NCBI GenBank assembly: GCA_027019785.1
Contig: JALUWF010000144.1
Location: 1-46,844, forward strand
Length of the DNA: 46,844 nucleotides
Source: Mariprofundus sp.
Lineage (GTDB): Bacteria; Pseudomonadota; Zetaproteobacteria; Mariprofundales; Mariprofundaceae
Reading direction: 5' to 3'
Shown here: one piece after another, positions 362 through 13,145 of the stretch
Layout: each line of letters starts with the position of its first letter
Position numbering within the stretch: the first letter of the stretch is position 1
Made by a program: the position numbers and the translations under genes
Notes under the pieces: model-generated
The model's database searches: none
What the model saw: the letters and a program-made list of their open reading frames with translations, nothing else
What the model was told of the DNA's origin: nothing

Positions 362-1564
362 TTACTTTGCGGGACTCTGCGTACTCTGCGGTGAAACACT
401 TTGGTTTTTTCCCTGAAGCGGTAAGGTAAATTCGGCGTGCAGGCCGTTGGGGTCGCGGTTGGAGAGCGTCAACTCGCCACCGTTAAATTCCAGCAACTCC
501 TTGACTATGGCCAGACCCAGCCCGTGACTTTTGTGCGTTCTGCTACGTGCCTTGTCAACGCGATAAAAACGCTCGGTCACATGGGGCAGATGTTTCTCCG
601 CAATGCCCGGCCCTTCATCCTCAATAACAACACGGCATTGATCCTGCCGACGACTGATAACCACGCGGATACGACCCTGCTGCGGGGAGTAGTTGATCGC
701 ATTGACCAACAGATTGGTCACAATCCTGTCCACATCTTCAAAAGATGCCGCAACAGCCACCTTTTTCTTATCCCCTGATAATTTTAATTTCACATGCTTG
801 TCACTGCATTGCGGCGTCAACATACCACATACACGCCGAACGACGATATTCATATCACAGGTGACATCATCGTCCCGCTGTCCGAACTCAGCCTGATCCA
901 GCGTCAGCAACGCATTGAGCAGGTGATTGACATGTTTGGCTTCATCAGCAATCACCACCGCCGCCTCTTTTCTGAAATCTGCCTGGTCGCCAAAACATTC
1001 CATACTGCGGGCATAACCGAGCAGCGAAGTCAGCGGCGTTTTCAGATCGTGCATCAGATTGGACAGGAAGGTGCGCTGCTGCTGCTCCAGCTTGTGCCTC
1101 CGTGTCACATCGAGACAGAGTAACATGGCCTCGCCATGATCAAGCTGCGCCAGCCTCGGAGTCAGCACCCACTTGTCCATCTGCATGCGTGGCAGTTTTG
1201 TCTTTTCCGGCAGCGCCGTCACCGCCAGCAACAGCAACGCATTCCAGTCAGCATCCCGGTAGAGTTGCCGCATCGGCAGCGGCAGTTCATGGTCGCCCAT
1301 CTCGAAAACAATACGGGCGCAGGGGTTAGCTGCAACCACCGTCGCACCGCCGCTACCTATCCGCAACACGGGCTCATTGACATCACTCAGCAGCGCATCC
1401 AGCCGTACATTGCTGCGCAACTGCTGTTCAAGTTGCAGGATGGTCTCCTTCAATTGCCGATTCTTGCGCTGATAAGCGCTCATCTGCTGACGCATACGCA
1501 TCATGGTCATCAGACAGCCAAGGGCAACCGCGCCAGCAGCAGCCGTCAACCAGAGACGGATCAT
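362..1564 (-). CDS. phoR: Phosphate regulon sensor histidine kinase PhoR
   Basis: Inner-membrane sensor kinase that phosphorylates PhoB when phosphate is scarce. One N-terminal membrane helix (about residues 3-22) is followed by a helical linker and a PAS-like region (about 52-155). The HisKA H-box is MHDLKTPLTS with the phospho-accepting His172. The HATPase domain has G1 DEGPGIAEKHL, an F-box ERFYRVDKARS and G2 HGLGLAIVKELL, so the catalytic parts look intact. The 400-residue length is normal for PhoR. The start ATG overlaps the phoB stop as ATGA, implying coupled translation. The last ~15 codons (after LPLQGK) read through a dispersed repeat (359-413), so the C-terminal tail is probably not ancestral. 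The PhoR assignment rests on the PhoB and pst neighbours. Confidence 0.93.
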   Translation of the reverse strand: MIRLWLTAAAGAVALGCLMTMMRMRQQMSAYQRKNRQLKETILQLEQQLRSNVRLDALLSDVNEPVLRIGSGGATVVAANPCARIVFEMGDHELPLPMRQLYRDADWNALLLLAVTALPEKTKLPRMQMDKWVLTPRLAQLDHGEAMLLCLDVTRRHKLEQQQRTFLSNLMHDLKTPLTSLLGYARSMECFGDQADFRKEAAVVIADEAKHVNHLLNALLTLDQAEFGQRDDDVTCDMNIVVRRVCGMLTPQCSDKHVKLKLSGDKKKVAVAASFEDVDRIVTNLLVNAINYSPQQGRIRVVISRRQDQCRVVIEDEGPGIAEKHLPHVTERFYRVDKARSRTHKSHGLGLAIVKELLEFNGGELTLSNRDPNGLHAEFTLPLQGKNQSVSPQSTQSPAK

Positions 1565-2313
1565 AAACCCGGTTTCACAAAGCGATACCCCATACCGCGA
1601 ACGGTTTCAATGCAATTTTTACGCCCCAACGGCTTTAATGCCTTGCGTAATCGTTTGATGGTCACATCCACCGTGCGTGGCTCAACATAGACATCGTGAC
1701 CCCATACATGATCAAGCAGGTAATCGCGGCTGCGGGTTTTGCCCGGTTTGTCCATCAGGATTTTCAACAGTTTATATTCCAGCGGTCGCACCTCAACACG
1801 CTGATCTCCCTCAATCACCACAGGCACATCAGGATCAAGCTGCAGGATATTCACGCCCGTAGTTCCGCTTTCGACAACCCGGCTACGGCGCAACAGTGCC
1901 TTGGCGCGTGCCACCAGCTCATCCGGCTCAAAAGGCTTGGGCAGATAGTCATCCGCCCCTTCATTGAGCCCATGCACCCGCTCGGCAGCCATACCCAGCG
2001 CCGTCACCATCAGTACCGGCGTATGGCCCTGACTGTTCGAGGCCTTGATCCAGCGCAGGATTTTCATGCCGCTGGCACCTGGCAACATGCGATCGAGCAC
2101 CACCAGTCGCCAGTCACCATCGCGCAGTGCCGCCAGTGCCGAATCGCCATCGCTGCAAATCGAGGTGGAAAAACCTGCCTTGCGCAGATGCATTTCCATC
2201 AGTCGGGCAATCGGCATTTCATCTTCGACAATCAAAATATCGGCGCTGGCCTGTTCGTTGGACTGAGTCATCAGGTCGCGATACTGTGGGCTGGACTGAT
2301 GCATCTCAAGCAT
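1561..2313 (-). CDS. phoB: Phosphate regulon response regulator PhoB
   Basis: OmpR-family transcription factor that binds Pho boxes when phosphorylated by PhoR. The receiver domain (residues ~24-140) has the acidic pair in VEDE, the phosphorylated Asp74 in VVLDRMLPG, Thr in MVTALG and Lys in LPKPFEP. The C-terminal winged helix ends with the recognition helix and wing DVTIKRLRKAL ... GMGYRF. Two starts are possible: ATG 2313, which overlaps the stop of the upstream gene as TGATG, or ATG 2271 (MTQSNEQ), which gives the more usual short N-terminus. The stop overlaps phoR by 4 bases. Candidate targets are the porin promoter region and the chemoreceptor promoter in this window. Confidence 0.94.
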   Translation of the reverse strand: MLEMHQSSPQYRDLMTQSNEQASADILIVEDEMPIARLMEMHLRKAGFSTSICSDGDSALAALRDGDWRLVVLDRMLPGASGMKILRWIKASNSQGHTPVLMVTALGMAAERVHGLNEGADDYLPKPFEPDELVARAKALLRRSRVVESGTTGVNILQLDPDVPVVIEGDQRVEVRPLEYKLLKILMDKPGKTRSRDYLLDHVWGHDVYVEPRTVDVTIKRLRKALKPLGRKNCIETVRGMGYRFVKPGL

Positions 2314-2843: not shown

Positions 2844-2899
2844 GATTTCTTCCTCTTTCTTCTCTCATCGTATGAATAGCGGAAATCAATCACCCGCAT

Positions 2900-2917
2900 G
2901 TGTCACTGTTGTGACAA
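2900..2917 (-). promoter_or_regulatory. TGTCAC-N4-GTGACA palindrome, candidate Pho box for the phoBR operon
   Basis: Positions 2901-2916 form a perfect inverted repeat, TGTCAC TGTT GTGACA. Read on the minus strand, it also gives two 7-base half-sites 11 bases apart (TTGTCAC at 2917-2911 and GTGACAC at 2906-2900), the spacing of a Pho box. A weak -10-like TATTCA lies at 2878-2873 ahead of the cNMP-domain gene. PhoB autoregulation is plausible, but the palindromic form could equally suit another dimeric regulator. Confidence 0.45.
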
Positions 2918-2936
2918 CAGGGGTTTTGGCCGGTTG

Positions 2937-3107
2937 TTGTCTTGATGGTGTCACAAACGGAATAAGCACATTCCCACCACAGTGAGTGGTTTTGACTTTC
3001 ATCTTTTTGAACCAGCGGTCACATACGAAAACCCTCTGTTATGCCAACTGAATCAAAATGCCACATGCAAATAACCACACTGTTCCAGTATGTCACATTA
3101 GTGACAC
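2937..3107 (+). promoter_or_regulatory. Regulatory region of the porin gene: Pho-like half-sites and second TGTCAC palindrome
   Basis: TTGTCTT (2937-2943) and GTGTCAC (2948-2954) are spaced by 11 bases, as in a Pho box. A second perfect palindrome, TGTCAC ATTA GTGACA, lies at 3091-3106; it also reads as ATGTCAC/GTGACAC in 11-base register (3090-3107). I could not fix a convincing -10 element. The repeated TGTCAC/GTGACA vocabulary between divergent phosphate genes supports regulation here, probably by PhoB. Confidence 0.45.
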
Positions 3108-3166
3108 AAATCACACCTAGCGTCCGCCGCGACCCGAGATGGGATTTACAAATGAGGAGAAAAAAA

Positions 3167-4222
3167 TTGAAAAAAACAATTAAAACAATTGCTGCGCTTG
3201 CCATGTTTGCTGTAAGTGCGCCTGCCTTTGCCGGCGGCGTGCTGGTAGCTCAAAATGGTGACAGTAAATTGAAATTTGAAACTGAAGTGTTTTCCGACCT
3301 GACTCAGGTGAAAACCACGCATGTGCCTGCTACAGCAGACACGAAGAAACTTGGTCTGTCTGTGAGCCGCGCTTACTTTACCGGTAAGTACAGCTTCAAT
3401 AACGACTGGATGATGCGCGTCACCACCGACGTGAATCTGGATAACAAGCTGACCAAGAAGAACAACAACATCTTCCTGAAATACGCTTATCTGCAAGGCA
3501 AGCTGTATGGTGATGCTCTGGTCTTGCGTCTGGGTCAGTCGCACACACCGTGGATCGATCACGAAGAGCACCTTTGGGCGCACCGCTATATCTCCCCTGT
3601 CTTAATTGATTCCAATCACTACGATGCATCCTCCGATCTAGGTATCGGCTTCAAGGGTAATGTGCTGGACGGGCTGGCCAACTACTGGTTCACCTACACC
3701 AACGGCAATGGCTATGATCATCCGGCCATTAAAGGCAGCAGCATGGATTTCGACTCCCGCATTGGCCTGAACCTGTTACCTGGTCTGACGCTGGATTTCC
3801 AGTATCGTAACGGTTACAGAGCCACCAAGACTACGCCTCAGGTCGGGCTTGCCACCAAGTCAACCCTGATTCAGGGCATGGTCACCTACGGCATGGGTCA
3901 TGACTTCCGCATCGGCGCCAACTATGCGCAGAACAAAAAAACCGGTGGTACCAATGTGAAAGAGAACGCCTATGATCTATGGGCTTGGGGTAAAGTAACC
4001 GATCAGTTCGGTCTGTTGGGTCGCTATGAGTATGTGAAAGACAACAAAGTCGCTGCCAGTCAGAAGAAGAAGACCCGCTACGTGGCTGGTGTTGAATACT
4101 TCCCGACCAAGAATGTCGCCATGTCGCTGGTGTATGATGTGACCGACAATAAGGTTGGCGGCGTATACCGCGCCAAGGGCAAGGTCACCAAGATCGGTCT
4201 GTACACGAACTTTAAGTACTAA
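3167..4222 (+). CDS. Outer-membrane porin, probably phosphate-related
   Basis: A 351-residue outer-membrane beta-barrel. The chosen start is TTG 3167, preceded by AGGAGA (3155-3160). It yields a classic signal peptide of the form (M)KKTIKTIAALAMF...APAFA, with cleavage before GGVLVAQ. ATG 3152 is an alternative. An upstream in-frame ATG at 3041 is rejected because that stretch holds operator-like sites and no ribosome site. The mature part has many alternating beta-strand segments (for example YSFNNDWMMRVTTDVNL, FGLLGRYEYVKDN) and ends in an aromatic residue (NFKY), as barrels do. A location between phoBR and pstS, with Pho-like sites upstream, suggests phosphate or anion uptake, similar in role to OprP/PhoE. 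Specificity is inferred from context only. Confidence 0.8.
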   Translation: MKKTIKTIAALAMFAVSAPAFAGGVLVAQNGDSKLKFETEVFSDLTQVKTTHVPATADTKKLGLSVSRAYFTGKYSFNNDWMMRVTTDVNLDNKLTKKNNNIFLKYAYLQGKLYGDALVLRLGQSHTPWIDHEEHLWAHRYISPVLIDSNHYDASSDLGIGFKGNVLDGLANYWFTYTNGNGYDHPAIKGSSMDFDSRIGLNLLPGLTLDFQYRNGYRATKTTPQVGLATKSTLIQGMVTYGMGHDFRIGANYAQNKKTGGTNVKENAYDLWAWGKVTDQFGLLGRYEYVKDNKVAASQKKKTRYVAGVEYFPTKNVAMSLVYDVTDNKVGGVYRAKGKVTKIGLYTNFKY

Positions 4223-4230
4223 AAAATATC

Positions 4231-4253
4231 AGGCCGGAGTTTTACTCCGGCCT
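4231..4253 (+). terminator. Terminator hairpin after the porin gene
   Basis: A perfect 10-bp stem, AGGCCGGAGT / ACTCCGGCCT, with a TTT loop begins 9 bases after the porin stop. It is followed by GTTATGTTT, a weak T-rich tail. It probably reduces read-through into pstS rather than giving full termination. Confidence 0.7.
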
Positions 4254-4289
4254 GTTATGTTTCAACCTAAATAAAACAAGGAGATTAGC

Positions 4290-5336
4290 ATGAAAAAAAT
4301 GATTTTTGCAGCAGCAATGATTGTAACCGGCGCTATCAGTGCAGTATCTGTCGCGCAGGCGGCACCTACGATCAACGGTGCGGGCGCAACCTTCCCATTC
4401 CCGGTCTATTCACAGTGGGCGCATGACTATAACAAGGAAACCGGCGTTAAACTGAACTATCAGGCCATCGGTTCCGGCGGCGGCATCAAACAGATCAAGG
4501 CCAGAACTGTGGACTTCGGCGCATCCGATGCACCATTGAAAGCAGCAGAGCTGGATAAATTCGGTCTGATGCAGTTCCCGATGATCATGGGCGGTGTGGT
4601 GCCGGTTGTGCATATTAAAGGCATCAAGGCTGGGCAGTTGAAACTGACGTCACGCAACATTGCCAACATCTACCTGGGCAACATCAAAAAATGGAATGAC
4701 CCGCGTATCACTTCCAACAACCCTGGCCTGAGACTGCCGAACATGGATATCACCGTGGTTCACCGCGCTGACGGTTCCGGCACCACCTGGATTTTCACCA
4801 ACTACCTGACCAAGGTAAGCGGTGAATGGGCTGAAAAGCTGGGCAATGCCAAAGCTGTTGAATGGCCTGTCGGTCTCGGCGGCAAGGGCAACCAGGGCGT
4901 TGCTGCATTCGTGGGCAAGGTGAAGGGCTCCATCGGTTATGTTGAATATGCCTATGCATTACAGAACCACATGGCTTCTGTGCTATTGCAGAACTTCTAC
5001 GGCAACTTCGTCGCACCGACCTCCGCCAACTTCCAGGCTGCCGCTGCTGGTGCTGACTGGAAACATGCCAAGGGTTACTACATGGTGCTGACCAATCAGC
5101 CTGGCGCCAAATCATGGCCGATCACCGGCGCTTCTTTCATCCTGCTGTATAAGACTCAGGCTCATCCTGCGCAGGCCAGAGAAGTGTTGAAGTTCTACAA
5201 CTGGAGCTATAACAACGGCGCCAGGGCCGCTGAAAAATTGGATTATGTGCCGATGCCGAAGAAAGTCGCCAACATGGTTCGCGCCACCTGGAGTAAAGTG
5301 CTGAAAGACAAGCGCGGCCACGCCATCTGGAAGTAA
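4290..5336 (+). CDS. pstS: Phosphate ABC transporter substrate-binding protein PstS
   Basis: Periplasmic phosphate-binding protein that feeds PstCAB. A 24-residue signal peptide ends AVSVAQA before APTINGAG. The diagnostic phosphate-binding loop segments are present: GAGATFPFPVYSQW, IGSGGGIKQIKARTVDFGASDAPL and HRADGSGTTWIFTNYL. Length (348 residues) matches the family. AAGGAG lies 7 bases before the ATG. It follows the porin by 67 bases with a hairpin between, and is itself followed by a strong terminator, so pstS mRNA is likely made apart from pstCAB, which fits the usual need for excess binding protein. Confidence 0.96.
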   Translation: MKKMIFAAAMIVTGAISAVSVAQAAPTINGAGATFPFPVYSQWAHDYNKETGVKLNYQAIGSGGGIKQIKARTVDFGASDAPLKAAELDKFGLMQFPMIMGGVVPVVHIKGIKAGQLKLTSRNIANIYLGNIKKWNDPRITSNNPGLRLPNMDITVVHRADGSGTTWIFTNYLTKVSGEWAEKLGNAKAVEWPVGLGGKGNQGVAAFVGKVKGSIGYVEYAYALQNHMASVLLQNFYGNFVAPTSANFQAAAAGADWKHAKGYYMVLTNQPGAKSWPITGASFILLYKTQAHPAQAREVLKFYNWSYNNGARAAEKLDYVPMPKKVANMVRATWSKVLKDKRGHAIWK

Positions 5337-5388
5337 GCGAGCTTAACGCATGATGCTGTATCTACCATAGAAACAGCCGCAGTAAACG

Positions 5389-5419
5389 GAAGAGCCGGGT
5401 TGATCCCGGCTCTTCTTTT
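5389..5419 (+). terminator. Rho-independent terminator after pstS
   Basis: An 11-bp perfect stem, GAAGAGCCGGG / CCCGGCTCTTC, with a 5-base loop is followed directly by TTTT. It lies 52 bases beyond the pstS stop and separates pstS from pstC. Confidence 0.9.
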
Positions 5420-5437
5420 CCAGACTCGATAGGTTTT

Positions 5438-5533
5438 AGACACAGATGAACGCAGATTACCGCAGATAAAACAAAAACAGTTTTTGATTGATACATGATG
5501 CCCTTTGCGAAACTTTGCGTACTTTGCGGTGGA
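5438..5533. repeat. Dispersed repeats between pstS and pstC
   Basis: Positions 5438-5468 carry ACACAGATGAACGCAGATTA and a following CCGCAGAT, the reverse complement of the family seen at 42873-42909. Positions 5499-5533 carry CTTTGCGAAACTTTGCG plus TACTTTGCGGTGGA, related to the repeat at the end of phoR. The remaining ~125 bases before pstC show no gene and no convincing Pho box. Confidence 0.75.
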
Positions 5534-5661
5534 TGCTTTTTAAGAAGTTTTCACGGGACGTTTTTCGTAAAGACAAGATCATATTGCGCGACAGGCCTGT
5601 TACCGTAAGAATCGCGGATTTCTGGCCGGGTTAGACTATCACAGGGGAGCACTGCCACAGC

Positions 5662-6588
5662 ATGAGTACAGAAACAAAAAAACCATGGGGCGATAGCATT
5701 TTTCGCGGTCTGACCCTTAGCTTCGCCATTGGCATTCTGCTGCTGTTCACGGCCATCGTCGTCAGCCTCTGGCATGAATCGCTTCCCTCCATTCATAAAT
5801 TCGGCTTCTCCTTTTTAACCAGCAGCGCCTGGAATCCGGTTAAGGATGACTTCGGCGCCCTGATCGCCATAGTCGGAACCTTGATATCCACTCTGCTGGC
5901 TATGCTAATCGCCGTACCGATATCCATTGGCGTCGCCCTGTTTCTGGCTGAACTGGCACCGGAATGGATGAAAGCGCCGTTCGGCACCGCCATCGAACTG
6001 CTGGCCGCCATTCCCAGTATTGTTTATGGCATGTGGGGACTGTTTGTACTCTCGCCTATCATGGCGGATCATCTGCAACCGTGGCTGGCCGATCATTTCG
6101 ATTTTCTGCCCTTCTTTACGGGGCCTGCCATGGGCATCGGTATGCTCACCGCAGGGCTGGTGCTGGCGCTGATGATTCTGCCCTTTATCGCCTCAGTGAC
6201 GCGTGACGTGTTCCTGATGGTACCGCAGAACCTCAAGGAAGCCGCCTACGGTATGGGCTGCACCACCTGGGAAGTGGTACGCGACATTATGATTCCTTAC
6301 GGCAAAAAAGGCATCGCCGGCGCTGTATTTCTCGGCATGGGCCGGGCCCTGGGCGAGACCATGGCCATCACCTTTGTGATCGGCAACGCCTACCACCTGT
6401 CGTGGTCGCTGTTTGCACCGGGAACCTCGATCGCCTCGACGCTGGCCAACGAATTTACCGAAGCCGATAGTGATATCTATCTCTCCTCGCTGGTCGAACT
6501 CGGGCTGGTGCTGTTCCTGATCACCTTCATTGTCCTGGGCATAGCGCAAATGTGGCTCCGTCGCGGCAATCAGGGAGGCGGTTTATGA
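5662..6588 (+). CDS. pstC: Phosphate ABC transporter permease PstC
   Basis: Inner-membrane permease subunit of the high-affinity phosphate transporter. The 308 residues contain six predicted membrane helices, beginning with LTLSFAIGILLLFTAIVVSL. The cytoplasmic coupling loop EAAYGMGCTTWEVVRDIMIP is typical of this transporter class and contacts PstB. GRALGETMAITFVIGN is a PstC hallmark. The last bases overlap pstA as ATGA, and pstA and pstB follow, so these genes form one operon. Confidence 0.96.
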   Translation: MSTETKKPWGDSIFRGLTLSFAIGILLLFTAIVVSLWHESLPSIHKFGFSFLTSSAWNPVKDDFGALIAIVGTLISTLLAMLIAVPISIGVALFLAELAPEWMKAPFGTAIELLAAIPSIVYGMWGLFVLSPIMADHLQPWLADHFDFLPFFTGPAMGIGMLTAGLVLALMILPFIASVTRDVFLMVPQNLKEAAYGMGCTTWEVVRDIMIPYGKKGIAGAVFLGMGRALGETMAITFVIGNAYHLSWSLFAPGTSIASTLANEFTEADSDIYLSSLVELGLVLFLITFIVLGIAQMWLRRGNQGGGL

Positions 6589-7423
6589 TCCGGCGTCAAC
6601 GTCGTATTCTCACCAACCGCATTGTCCTCGGGCTCTCCGGTGCCGCCGCCACGCTCGGCCTGGTGATGCTGGCATGGATTCTGGGCGATGTGGCGCTGCG
6701 CGGTATGCAGGCCATCAACTGGGATTTCTTCACCGAACTACCCACCCCACCCGGCATGGTAGGTGGCGGTGTGGCCAACGATATCGTCGGCACGCTACTG
6801 ATGACGGTGGCTGCTACCTGCATGTCGGTGCCGTTTGGCGTACTGGCCGGCACCTGGCTGTCTGAATTTGGCCGTGATTCCAGGCTGGGCAGCGTTATTC
6901 GTTATTTTTCAGATATTCTGGTTTCGGCACCCTCCATTGTCATTGGCGTATTTGTGTACCTGATTATCGTTCGCCCTTCAGGCCATTTTTCCGGCTGGGC
7001 GGGCGCTGTCTCTCTGGCTATTATCATGCTGCCAGTGGTATCACGCACCACCGAAGAGATGCTGAAACTGGTGCCGCATGAATTGCGCGAAGCGGCATTG
7101 GCGCTGGGCGCACCCTACTGGAAAATCATGCCGCAAGTGATTTACAGAGCTGCCGCCGCAGGCATGGCGACCGGCATTATGCTGGCTGTGGCACGCGTCG
7201 CCGGTGAAACCGCACCACTGTTATTCACCGCCATGAACAGCCCCTACTGGATGGAGAGCATGAACGAACCGATGGCCAATCTCACTGTCACCCTGTTCAA
7301 TTATGCCATGAGTCCCTATGATGACTGGCAAACCAAAGCATGGGGCGCGGCCTTCCTGATTACCATGGCTGTATTGATCACCACCATTACCACGCGCCTG
7401 ATACTGCGCAAAAGGAGCAAGCA

Positions 7424-7427
<4 letters not shown>
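6585..7427 (+). CDS. pstA: Phosphate ABC transporter permease PstA
   Basis: Second permease subunit, 280 residues with about six membrane helices. The EAA loop [20 protein letters not shown] and the following [14 protein letters not shown] are PstA signatures. The start is ATG 6585, whose ATGA overlaps the pstC stop and has GGGAGG 6 bases upstream; an earlier in-frame ATG at 6552 lies inside pstC and is not needed. Its stop overlaps the TTG start of pstB. Together with PstC it forms the membrane channel. Confidence 0.95.
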
Positions 7428-8296
<869 letters not shown>

Positions 8297-8308
8297 GGAA
8301 CCTATATC

Positions 8309-9037
8309 ATGAATGAACACACCATCACGCGCTATGAAGACGAGCTCATTGAACTGAAGGAAAAAGCCCTTGAAATGGGTGGAATGGTTGAAAAAGCAGT
8401 CAACCGCTCTATGAATTCATTATTCAAACATGATACCAGCCGCGCCCATAAAGTGATTGAACGTGAAAAATCCATCAATGACATGGAACTCGAAATTGAT
8501 GAAATGACGCGCAACATTCTGGCCTTGCGCCAACCCGCCGCCAGCGACCTTCGCTTTGTCATCACATCGATCAAGGTGGTGACGGATATGGAACGCATGG
8601 GCGACCTGGCTGAGGGCATTGCTGAGATGATGCTGGAAACCAGAGAGCATCCCTTGATTCAGGTGTCATCACTTGAATCCTTATCCGAACTGGTGTTGAC
8701 GCACCTTAAACTAGCCTTCGACGCCTTCGCTAACAATAATATTGATGCTGCCATGCAGTGCATCGCTGGCGATAAAAAAGTCAACCAGATGTATAAATCC
8801 ATGATGCGCGAATATCTGACCTATATGGCCGAAGATCCGCACCAGATCACATCCGAGTTGATTGCTTCAAATATTGCCAAAAACCTTGAACGCATTGGCG
8901 ATCATAGCGTCAATATTGCGCAAATGGTGGTCTATATGGTCAAAGGCGTCGATGTCCGTCATACGGGACGCAAAGCCACAATCAGGATGATTAATGATGA
9001 GCTGAATAAAGAGGATCATCCGGTCACTGCCGACTAA
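8309..9037 (+). CDS. phoU: Phosphate signalling protein PhoU
   Basis: A 242-residue all-helical protein with the two PhoU three-helix repeats. Each carries the conserved metal-binding pattern: EIDEMTRNILALRQPAASDL with VVTDMERMGDLAEGI in the first, and SNIAKNLERIGDHSVNIAQM in the second. It links PstSCAB activity to PhoR, keeping the kinase quiet when phosphate is plentiful. AAGGAA precedes the ATG, and it closes the pstCAB-phoU operon. Confidence 0.95.
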   Translation: MNEHTITRYEDELIELKEKALEMGGMVEKAVNRSMNSLFKHDTSRAHKVIEREKSINDMELEIDEMTRNILALRQPAASDLRFVITSIKVVTDMERMGDLAEGIAEMMLETREHPLIQVSSLESLSELVLTHLKLAFDAFANNNIDAAMQCIAGDKKVNQMYKSMMREYLTYMAEDPHQITSELIASNIAKNLERIGDHSVNIAQMVVYMVKGVDVRHTGRKATIRMINDELNKEDHPVTAD

Positions 9038-9091
9038 ATCTGTTACGCGCTTTAAACTACTTGCCCTAATAATTACGTGAATCTTTGCGGA

Positions 9092-9116
9092 GAAGCACTG
9101 ATTGATTCAGTGCTTC
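9092..9116 (+). terminator. Hairpin after phoU, possible terminator
   Basis: A 10-bp perfect stem, GAAGCACTGA / TCAGTGCTTC, with loop TTGAT starts 54 bases after the phoU stop. There is no T-run behind it (CTTAC follows), so it may act as an mRNA-end stabiliser or a weak terminator. Confidence 0.5.
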
Positions 9117-9140
9117 CTTACAAGCCACGAGTTTTTCTGC

Positions 9141-9196
9141 CTGTCACACAGATGCCACTTGTGTGACACTCCTTTGTCACAATCCCATCCGATAAT
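9141..9196 (+). promoter_or_regulatory. Pho-box promoter of the chemoreceptor gene
   Basis: Four 7-base half-sites lie at exact 11-base steps: CTGTCAC (9141), ATGCCAC (9152), GTGACAC (9163) and TTGTCAC (9174). They match the Pho consensus CTGTCAY at 6, 5, 5 and 6 positions or so. The last ends at 9180, and a -10-like GATAAT sits at 9191-9196, exactly 10 bases on. This is the arrangement known for PhoB-activated promoters, where the box replaces the -35. The region also contains an inverted TGTCACACA / TGTGTGACA (9142-9168). Confidence 0.7.
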
Positions 9197-9385
9197 TTAA
9201 TCATATGAACGCTGATGCGTAACTACCCTGCACACATCGTCTGCCCCCCTCAAACTCATGGGCACTTTTCTGATCAAGGCGATAGGGCATGGAATCTTTG
9301 CCATATTGCCAATTCCAGCCTTGTAGTGAACGGGTCGAACAGGTTTACAAACGTATTATTAAAACAGAACTACTGGAGAAATAGT

Positions 9386-11788
9386 ATGCGGCACAACCAC
9401 CCGATCACCAATCAGGAAGTAGCGATGGACGATGATTCCATTCTGGTTTCTACCACGGATTTGAAGGGTATCATCACGGAAGTAAACCCGGACTTTGTCA
9501 AAATCAGTGGCTTTACCGAACAGGAACTGATTGGCAAGAGCCATAATCTTGTGCGTCATCCTGACATGCCTGAAGCGGCATTTAAGGACTTGTGGAAAAC
9601 CATCCAATCGGGGCGGCCCTGGATTGGGCAGGTGAAAAACCGCTGCAAGAATGGTGATCATTATTGGGTGACTGCCAATATAGCTCCGGTAACAGAGCAG
9701 GGGCGCGTTACTGGCTATATTTCAGTACGCCACAAGCCCAGCCGTCAGGATATTGATGCGGCCACGAAATTATACAGTCAAATCAATATGGGAAAAGCCA
9801 GTTTGAAGCCTGGCCTGCTGGGTCGCATGGTCGCTGTCTGTTGGCGCAACCGCAGCGTGACGCAGCGTTTGTGCATCATCATGGCGCTGCTCGGGGCTGC
9901 CATGACGACCATGACATTCGCCTTTGCGCAAATGATTATGGCGGGGGAAAGTGCCGCACAGTTGATCAGTCAATTAAGCTATGGTGTTGGTGCCTGCTTT
10001 ACCACTGTGCTGGCAATATCTGTATGGTTTATGCGTTCGAGTGTCTTATCAGGTCTGCGGGCAAGCACCCATGTACTGCAAGATATTACCGAAGGAAATT
10101 TCAATAAGCATATTGATATCCAGCGTGGTGATGAATTGGGTGACCTATTGCGGGCAACTAAAGTGTTACAGGTTCGGCAAGGTTATATGCTGAGCGATGC
10201 ACGTCAGCAGCTGAATCGTGCCGCACGCATTCAATCGGCTCTGGATAGCACGACTGCGCATGTCATGATGGCGGATCAGAATCATCATATCATTTATATC
10301 AATGATACCTTGCAACAAATGCTGGAACGCAATGAATCCAATTTCAAACAAAAACTGCCCAATTTTAATGCCAGGCAGTTAATCGGCACCTGCATCGATG
10401 TATTTCATAAAGATCCATCACATCAGCGCGGCATCCTGGATAAATTAACCACCACCTTCACTTCTCCCGATATGAATCTTGGTGGCACCTGGGTGAAGAT
10501 TATTGTCAATCCAGTCTTTGATACACAAGGCAAACGTATTGCCACCGTAACCGAATGGCTGGATCGCACCCGGGACGTGGCACTGGAACACATGGTCGAA
10601 CATGACGTGAAGGGATTGGTGGAAGCCGCCAAGCGGGGTGAATTATCAAGCCGCATTGAAATAGGTGAAGCTACGGGTCAGATCAGCGAATTGAGCCAGT
10701 CGTTGAATGAATTACTGGCCGTTACCGAGCGTGGCATTGAGGATATGATCCAGGGTTTAAAAGCCTTGGAAGAAGGCGACCTGACCTATCGCATTAGCAA
10801 TGCATATCAGGGCATGTTTGATGCCGCCAAGCAGGCCAATAATAATACTGCTGAAAAAATGGCAGCCGTGATGGGGCATGTGCAGATAACGGCTGAAGAG
10901 GTGAGTACCGGGGCTGACGAAATCGCCGAAGGCAACAATACCCTTAGTGCCCGCACTCAGGAGCAGGCCGCAGCACTGGAGGAAACAGCCGCCAGTATTG
11001 AAGAGATCACCGGTACCGTGCAACAAACGGCAGATAATTCGCGCCAGGCCAATCAACTGGCTTCCACGGCACGCGAACAGGCGGAGATAGGTGGCAAGAT
11101 TGTCAGCCAGACTGTGGAAGCGATGGCTGAAATCAACGCCAATAGTAAAAATATTGCCGATATTATCGGTGTGATTGATGAAATTGCCTTCCAGACCAAT
11201 TTGCTGGCACTCAATGCAGCAGTGGAAGCCGCTCGGGCTGGCGAACAAGGGCGTGGATTTGCGGTGGTGGCGAGTGAAGTGCGTACACTGGCGCAGCGTT
11301 CGGCAAGTGCAGCCAAAGAAATAAAAATATTGATCAATCAAAGCGTGGATAGTGTGGAATCCGGCACCCACCTGGTCGATGAATCGGGCGAGGCATTGCA
11401 GAGCATTATCAAGGCGGTTTCACAGGTGGGTGATATTATCTCTGAAATTGCATCAGCCAGCACCGAGCAAACTATGGGCGTGGAACAAATCAATCTGGCC
11501 ATTGCCCAGCTGGATACCAACACTCAGCAAAACACCGCCATGGTGGAAGAGTCTGCAGCCGCCAGCCAGCGGTTGAATGATCAGGCTGGTGAATTGCGCC
11601 AGCAGATTGCCCTGTTTCAGCTGGATGATACGCTAGCAAGCTCGGTTTCATCCCAACCTGCGCCTAAACAACTGAAGAAAAAAGCCAAAAAGGTTGCCCG
11701 GAAAAGGGCCAGGCAGCAGGTAAAAGAAATCATTGCATCACGTTCCGGTCTGGAATCCGAACAGAAAAAAATATGGGATGAGTTTTAG
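9386..11788 (+). CDS. PAS-domain methyl-accepting chemotaxis protein (Aer-like chemoreceptor)
   Basis: An 800-residue chemoreceptor. The N-terminal PAS (about 14-115; [35 protein letters not shown]) is of the Aer type that binds a flavin. Two membrane helices (about 165-187 and 198-218) are followed by HAMP-like sequence, a second PAS-like region (about 285-400), another HAMP-like segment and the signalling domain. The latter has the near-invariant hairpin tip [20 protein letters not shown] ... [13 protein letters not shown] lysine/arginine-rich linker then leads to a final IWDEF, which fits the xWxxF tether for CheR/CheB. The start is ATG 9386 with GGAG at 9375; ATG 9215 is rejected because it lies at the predicted transcript start. 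The Pho-box promoter suggests phosphate-linked taxis; the ligand is unknown. Confidence 0.88.
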
Positions 11789-11814
11789 CGCAGAAATATC
11801 GGAGGATGGATATT

Positions 11815-13145
11815 ATGACTCGTTACGCATTGCCTTCGGCCATGTTTTCCAGGCAGCTTGATCAACTGTTGCTCAGAATGGCGATCATGTTGTTGCTGAT
11901 TGTCAGTGCTTCTGAAGGCATCGTAATATTGCTGTTTTCCTGGCTGAATGTGGCGCCTACGTTATCGCCTGTTACTGTGGCGGGTCTGGACGTGTTGATG
12001 TTGTTCAGTTTTGCAGCCATACCGCTGAATATCTGGGTTCTTAGGCCGGTTAAGGAGGCTATCGACGCCTCATCACATCGGCACGATCTTTTATCCAGTG
12101 CGGTGAGGAATGCTGGCGATGGTATCATGATCAGCAATCGCGACGGCGTGATAGAATATGTTAATCAGGCCTTTCGCGATATACTGCACTGTGAGAATGA
12201 AGATGTGGTGGGCCAGCCTGTGGGTGCGGTCGATCCTTCAATGGCTTCATCATCGTGGAAACGGCGTTTTATGCACGCCATACAGCGTGATCATATATGG
12301 CAGGATGAACAGTGGGGCGTGCGTAAAAATGGCGAGAAATATCTGGCCAAAGTGACCGTGACGCCGATTATGGTGCATAATCAAATTTCCAACTTTGTGA
12401 CCATTCTTCGCGATCAAACCAGTCACCACACATTGGAATTAAAATATCATCAGGCTCAGAAAATGGAGGCGGTCGGTACGCTGGTGGGTGGCATCGCCCA
12501 TGATTTTAATAATATGCTCTCCTCATTGGTCGGCCAAATATACATGACCAAAGCCTGCCTGAAGAAACAGCCGGATACTGCTATGTGGAAAGTCATCATG
12601 GCTATATTGATATCAGCAGCGAGCTGAACGTGGGTACGTCCATCCATCTGTTCCTGCCGTTAACAGAGCAGAGCAACTGCTGTTTGCCACCCACCGAGAC
12701 GATTTTTCGCGGTAACGGTGAAACGATTCTGCTGGTCGATGATCAGCAGGAAGTGCGTGAAACCTGCCGTGAGGTGTTGGAGACACTGGGCTATACTGTG
12801 TTGGAAGCCGTTGATGGCGTTGAGGCGCTGGATGCATACGCCAGCCATGCGACATGCATATCGGCTGTACTCAGCGATGTAGTGATGCCGCACATGCAGG
12901 GCATTGAACTTGCCTGCCGTATCAAGCAACACAACCCTGTCATGCCTGTCATTTTGATATCGGGTTATGACAAAGATGATGTCTTGGATCAACATACGCT
13001 ATTGCTGGTTGACAAGGTGTTGGCCAAGCCCTTTTCGATTGCATCCATTAGCAAGGTGTTACATCAGTTACTTCTTACCTCGCATGTACCTGAGCAGATG
13101 GCGCGGAAACAGCTGAAATTGAATTGGCATCCGTCACCGGATTGA
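11815..13145 (+). pseudogene. Hybrid sensor histidine kinase broken by an internal deletion
   Basis: The 5' part (11815-~12580) encodes two membrane helices, a PAS domain (NAGDGIMISNRDGVIEYVN) and a HisKA box with the phospho-accepting His (GGIAHDFNNMLSSL). It then runs out of frame and stops at 12625-12627. From about 12585, in another frame, the sequence resumes with HHGYIDISSELNVGTSIHLF, the very end of a HATPase domain, followed by a complete receiver (VDDQQ, phospho-Asp in LSDVVMP, ISGYD, LAKPF). The N, G1, F and G2 boxes are missing, so roughly 130-150 codons were deleted and the frame shifted. Start is ATG 11815, 9 bases after GGAGG (11801). It follows the chemoreceptor by 26 bases, so it was probably co-transcribed. 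A free receiver might still be made from GTG 12585. Confidence 0.85.

Follow-up and report, generated by a model that had tools for sequence, protein, structure and literature searches.

In Escherichia coli, PhoB promoters carry TGTCA repeats at intervals of 11 bp, with about 10 bp between the repeats and the −10 element. In Pseudomonas aeruginosa, low phosphate raises the chemoreceptor CtpL and, strongly, the oxygen receptor McpB/Aer2 (PMC9864684; PMC4926252); of the receptors measured under phosphate limitation, the latter was the most abundant (PMC9864684), and the Che2 proteins are likewise raised (PMC9769906). The main text of the P. aeruginosa PhoB ChIP-seq paper mentions neither ctpL nor aer2 (PMC4513871). 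In P. protegens, removal of pstS altered swimming, whereas removal of phoB and phoR did not (PMC11004494). Closer to the organism treated here, the genome account of M. ferrooxydans PV-1 reports aerotaxis genes, few MCP genes and polyphosphate bodies (PMC3179512); we found nothing on the zetaproteobacterial Pho regulon in the literature that we searched. An earlier note on our DNA had called a link between the Pho regulon and taxis not standard, which the Pseudomonas precedents of CtpL and McpB/Aer2 show to be too strong (PMC9864684; PMC4926252).

The DNA analysed, here called the window, is a 46,844-nucleotide stretch from Mariprofundus sp. It carries a phoB-pst locus whose minus strand has phoR, phoB and the gene of a cNMP-domain protein, and whose plus strand has a porin gene, pstS, pstC, pstA, pstB and phoU. 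The first gene past the end of phoU, at 9037, encodes a chemoreceptor, as the earlier note had said. We consider it very probable that positions 9142-9196 form a PhoB-activated sigma-70 promoter of that chemoreceptor gene (9386-11788), which would retune oxygen/redox swimming under phosphate starvation. The features of the locus are:

362-1564, minus strand: phoR-type histidine kinase
1561-2313, minus strand: phoB, receiver plus winged helix
2901-2917, minus strand: Pho box facing the cNMP-phoB-phoR genes
3091-3123, plus strand: Pho box of the porin-pst promoter, TGTCAC-N5-TGACAC-N10-TAGCGT, an internal positive control
8309-9037, plus strand: phoU
9092-9116, plus strand: 10-bp perfect hairpin after phoU, where the pst-phoU transcript may end (weak T tract)
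9386-11788, plus strand: chemoreceptor, 800 aa
11806-12627, plus strand: N-terminal remnant of a PAS-histidine kinase
12585-13145, plus strand: C-terminal remnant of the broken PAS-histidine kinase, with receiver domain

The structures in the PDB nearest to the DNA-binding domain of the window's PhoB are those of E. coli PhoB (recognition helix RTVDVTIKRLRKAL versus RTVDVHIRRLRKAL), and the Pho box at 2901-2917 probably serves PhoB autoregulation. In the genus at large, TGTCAY-N5-TGTCAY-type repeats are found at the congeners' porin promoters, and a TA lies 10 bp after the last half-site in 20/20 porin/pst promoters, mostly as TANNNT, a count that includes the window's own porin promoter. Arrays of three half-sites are present in 21/23 congeneric genomes, against a single match for the reversed control pattern across all 23, the forward count being partly double since TGTCA and TGACA are reverse complements.

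Several other observations were made on the phosphate genes of the genus. A cNMP-binding-domain protein (2313-2843), encoded between phoB and the porin gene and kept in most of the genus, is a possible new part of phosphate signalling; no DNA-binding domain was recognised in it. The pst operon comes in two kinds that replace each other at one position in the genus (window 4290-8296 versus L102, L104-L118): likeness to the window's PstC and PstA is >90% in L103 and L258, about 72% in L115 and only about 25-35% elsewhere, and PhoU and PhoB remain orthologous across both kinds. Directly past the −10 of most genus porin promoters, in the 5' leader, stands a conserved stretch (about CGCCGCAACCC ... 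GGGA; window 3119-3150; L102-L117) that may be an initial-transcript or RNA element and that is missing from the receptor leader. Finally, the Pho-box-like three-half-site array TGTCAC-N5-TGTCAC-N5-TGTAAY occurs repeatedly, in several congeners, upstream of the ubiquinone hydroxylase gene coq7 (G000:C338:6851-6878 (L126), L212, L222, L231, L236); PhoB control of coq7 would be unexpected.

The region between phoU and the chemoreceptor reads C TGTCAC ACAGA TGCCAC TTGTG TGACAC TCCTT TGTCAC AATCCCATCC GATAAT, and contains:

9142-9147, plus strand: Pho half-site 1, TGTCAC
9153-9158, plus strand: Pho half-site 2, TGCCAC
9164-9169, plus strand: Pho half-site 3, TGACAC
9175-9180, plus strand: Pho half-site 4, promoter-proximal, TGTCAC
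9191-9196, plus strand: predicted −10 hexamer GATAAT, 10 bp past the last half-site (congener porin promoters: TA at +10)
9203-9385, plus strand: predicted leader of about 183 nt, its start inferred from the −10
9375-9379, plus strand: ribosome-binding site GGAGA for the start at 9386

The half-site period is exactly 11 bp across all four. The earlier note had described this geometry, attributed it to PhoB, and proposed a weight-matrix scan and a comparison of the promoter in relatives; the geometry is borne out at 9142-9196, and both comparisons, given below, speak for PhoB. The receptor site obeys the local PhoB grammar, given that TGTCAY-type repeats followed by 10 bp and TA are genus-wide at porin/pst promoters. 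A search of 9000-9420 for a sigma-70 consensus pair found none.

Pattern searches with reversed controls were run over the whole genome. The E. coli-consensus dimer CTGTCATNNNNCTGTCAT, allowing 2 mismatches, gave 20 matches versus 12 for its reversed control, a weak contrast, and we therefore relied on a matrix and on multi-half-site searches instead. The pattern TGNCAC-N5 x4 has a single match with 0 mismatches in the 2,868,333-bp genome, the site at 9142-9180; as the sole perfect four-half-site match in the whole genome, the array is not a product of chance. The weight matrix was trained on the pst/porin promoters of congeners, with the window left out of training, and was scored over the window. 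Over its four half-sites the receptor Pho box scored 24.3 bits (p = 3.5e-10 per position; at that score about 0.002 matches are expected per genome, both strands), about 20 bits more than any other four-site match in the window.

Relaxing the four-half-site pattern to <=3 mismatches adds only one site in the genome, on C260 in the ppk intergenic region; ppk encodes polyphosphate kinase and is a typical Pho target, usually tied to phosphate control. Four-half-site Pho boxes lie between the divergent ppk and xseA-side genes here (G000:C260:4660-4699) and in the same region of congeners (L181, L185, L188, L190, L193, L208, L210, L215, L217, L221, L233). The side that they drive differs or is ambiguous; in G000 a small ORF stands between the box and xseA.

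A feature absent from the earlier note is a 9-bp inverted repeat (9142-9150/9160-9168) formed by half-sites 1 and 3. A possible objection to the PhoB interpretation is thus that the 27-bp element TGTCACACA-N9-TGTGTGACA (9142-9168) is the operator of some other dimeric regulator, or an RNA hairpin or terminator. The direct repeats could then be a by-product, because TGTCA and TGACA reverse-complement each other; the nine base pairs are perfect, and a terminator-like match was reported at 9142-9168. We regard this as quite improbable. The inverted repeat leaves half-site 4, the 10-bp spacing and the −10 unexplained, the T tract is weak (CTCCTTTGTC), and the porin/pst promoters of the genus show the same direct-repeat grammar as the receptor box. 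Moreover, a related box described below retains the 11-bp direct repeats but lacks the inverted repeat.

Downstream of the proposed PhoB promoter, ATG 9386 is the most likely start of the receptor, in preference to the longest-ORF start, 9215, since GGAGA lies 6 nt upstream of 9386 and homologues begin there. The leader, at about 183 nt, is a long one that could hide another promoter or control. An Rfam scan of 2850-9500 for riboswitch or leader RNAs gave sub-threshold matches only, and the leader folds no better than shuffled versions of itself (z −0.61).

The earlier note had recognised an Aer-like PAS chemoreceptor and not a periplasmic phosphate sensor, and both points hold, the first in extended form. 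The protein comprises an Aer-type PAS domain (about 8-134), two TM helices (about 161-181 and 193-221), HAMP, an Aer2-type haem PAS (about 279-396), HAMP_2 and an MCP signalling domain. The best PDB matches of the N-terminal PAS are to E. coli Aer (31cj, full-length, and 8dik; E 2e-44), and the residues of the pocket region of Aer (N34, R57, H58, D60, W70, W79, N85 and Y93) are identical in the receptor's alignment to Aer. The second PAS and the HAMP region that follows it match P. aeruginosa Aer2 (3vol, E 8e-49): FHKDPSHQR and EWLDRT of the receptor align with FHKNPAHQR and QWTDRT of 3vol/4hi4, motifs that include the proximal haem His (H234) and the haem-PAS Trp (W283) of Aer2. FAD in the first PAS and haem in the second are the predicted cofactors. 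The C-terminal end, IWDEF, resembles the xWxxF tether of methylation enzymes, and proteins with CheW domains, including long frames of CheA size, are encoded elsewhere in the genome.

By its domains, then, the receptor resembles an oxygen/redox receptor and not a phosphate receptor. This bears on a further reading of the locus, in which the protein is a CtpL-type phosphate chemoreceptor that reads Pi via PstS and is sited near pst for that reason. The receptor does neighbour pstS-phoU, and CtpL does work through PstS (PMC4926252). The TM helices, however, are about a dozen residues apart with no periplasmic ligand domain between them, and sensing falls to two cytoplasmic PAS domains, one of the Aer and one of the Aer2 type; the protein sequence already disfavours the CtpL-type reading, and we hold it to be highly unlikely.

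Among the genomes compared, only one, the draft genome G015, has a true orthologue of the receptor, which is 76.4% identical over 805 aa and stands as its sister with 100/100 support. The orthologue's gene lies across two contigs, C17 and C101, that we joined by an exact 141-bp shared end. The order in G015 is a receptor-like gene, a Pho box, cheW, the receptor, an intact PAS-kinase-receiver gene and a convergent GGDEF gene, so that the gene order downstream of the receptor is the same as in the window. The G015 box reads TGTCAT-CAAGC-TGACAC-GAGGA-AGTCAT-CATGC-TGACAT, then GATAGTTTTG, then TATTTT: four half-sites in 11-bp register with 10-bp spacing to a −10-like hexamer, as in the window. By the matrix its p is 2.7e-8 per position, which over the 450 bp preceding cheW comes to about 1e-5. 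G015 also carries phoB (78-79%), near which stands a Pho box of the same form. The contrast with paralogues is marked: 11 promoters of paralogous receptors or cheW genes in the genus, one of which (L171) had only 142 bp upstream, have no Pho box and score far lower by the matrix.

The G015 box is in our view the strongest of the new lines of evidence, since the gene upstream is a different one and yet box and receptor are again found together, although this promoter comparison has a single orthologue. Shared descent of the two boxes is not proven, since no alignment of them could be made beyond the half-sites. A deletion of cheW from the stretch that separates the window's box from its receptor might be expected to leave a remnant in the 183-nt leader; a search there found no similarity to cheW. 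Taken together, the genus grammar, the presence of phoB and phoR at the locus, the box at the G015 orthologue and the paralogous receptors without a box strongly support PhoB regulation of the receptor, as judged from sequence comparison.

The history of the locus raises a different objection, namely that the PhoB site is real but that the receptor, recently inserted behind phoU, is transcribed from it only by chance and plays no part related to phosphate. In the nearest syntenic relative, L063/L120 (PhoU 84%), phoU is followed directly by the GGDEF gene, the receptor block being absent; L063 is a Mariprofundus MAG with the same phoU-to-lpxC order as the window. Furthermore, the kinase behind the receptor is broken: an internal deletion has cost the window's copy (11806-13145) about 200 residues, most of the ATPase domain among them, whereas the kinase-REC protein of G015 (L162) is intact. 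The receptor locus is thus decaying in part, and the receptor could be drifting too, though its 800-aa frame is intact. Against an accident, the box faces the receptor and has its own −10 downstream of phoU, and the G015 orthologue has its own four-half-site box, before cheW and after another receptor gene. We judge such accidental transcription quite improbable.

The box goes with the receptor operon and not with phoU, since in G015 it sits before cheW and not after phoU. In no other genus member with a phoU downstream region to examine was a receptor found beside phoU, and the siting is specific to the window genome; the receptor block appears variable at the phoU-GGDEF position, and a gain here or a loss in L063/L120 would both fit. 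Because those members lack a receptor there and the G015 box sits before cheW, after another receptor gene, the adjacency to phoU is probably incidental.

The proposed PhoB promoter would act as follows. When phosphate is scarce, PhoR would phosphorylate PhoB, and two PhoB~P dimers, arranged head-to-tail, would occupy the four half-sites. Half-site 4 would substitute for the missing −35, and PhoB~P would recruit RNA polymerase to GATAAT, with the transcript starting near 9203. The receptor, a predicted membrane protein with no periplasmic ligand domain, would sense intracellular redox or energy state by its Aer-type FAD-PAS and probably oxygen by its Aer2-type haem-PAS, and would give its output through CheW/CheA. 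Induced by phosphate starvation, it would take a larger share of the receptor array, and oxygen/redox-guided swimming would be re-weighted.

Such a promoter on an oxygen/redox receptor would, if the interpretation is true, be a direct genetic wire between energy and phosphate supply. Mariprofundus-type bacteria, which are marine, microaerophilic iron oxidisers, live at steep oxygen/iron boundaries and produce phosphate-binding iron oxides, so that energy and phosphate supply may draw cells to different positions. We tentatively propose, as a possibility that goes well beyond the promoter itself, an ancestral operon of box, cheW, receptor and kinase, its dual FAD/haem PAS receptor being under the direct control of PhoB, so that starved cells might reset their preferred position in the oxygen/iron gradient, iron oxides trapping phosphate; this would amount to a regulated trade-off of energy taxis against phosphate supply.

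Among known systems, CtpL and CtpH of P. aeruginosa are alike in that chemoreceptor genes go up in low phosphate (PMC4926252; PMC9864684), but they sense phosphate in the periplasm (CtpL via PstS, CtpH directly), whereas the window receptor has PAS domains of redox/oxygen type. McpB/Aer2 has a haem-PAS homologous to the second PAS and following HAMP of the window receptor, but serves the separate Che2 pathway; the receptor box would offer a sequence-level case for its rise in low phosphate in Pseudomonas. We know of no Aer-type FAD-PAS in McpB/Aer2. E. coli Aer shares the N-terminal PAS, with HN.VRHPDMP and KNGDHYWV, the close TM pair, HAMP and the MCP domain, but lacks the second, haem-type PAS, and to our knowledge no PhoB control of Aer has been described. 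The E. coli phoA and pstS promoters are alike in their 11-bp TGTCA repeats, which replace the −35 about 10 bp before the −10, but they serve phosphate uptake and scavenging, whereas the window box would drive a redox/oxygen receptor. What appears to be new here is a dual Aer/Aer2-type receptor with a predicted PhoB promoter, a combination seen in two species.
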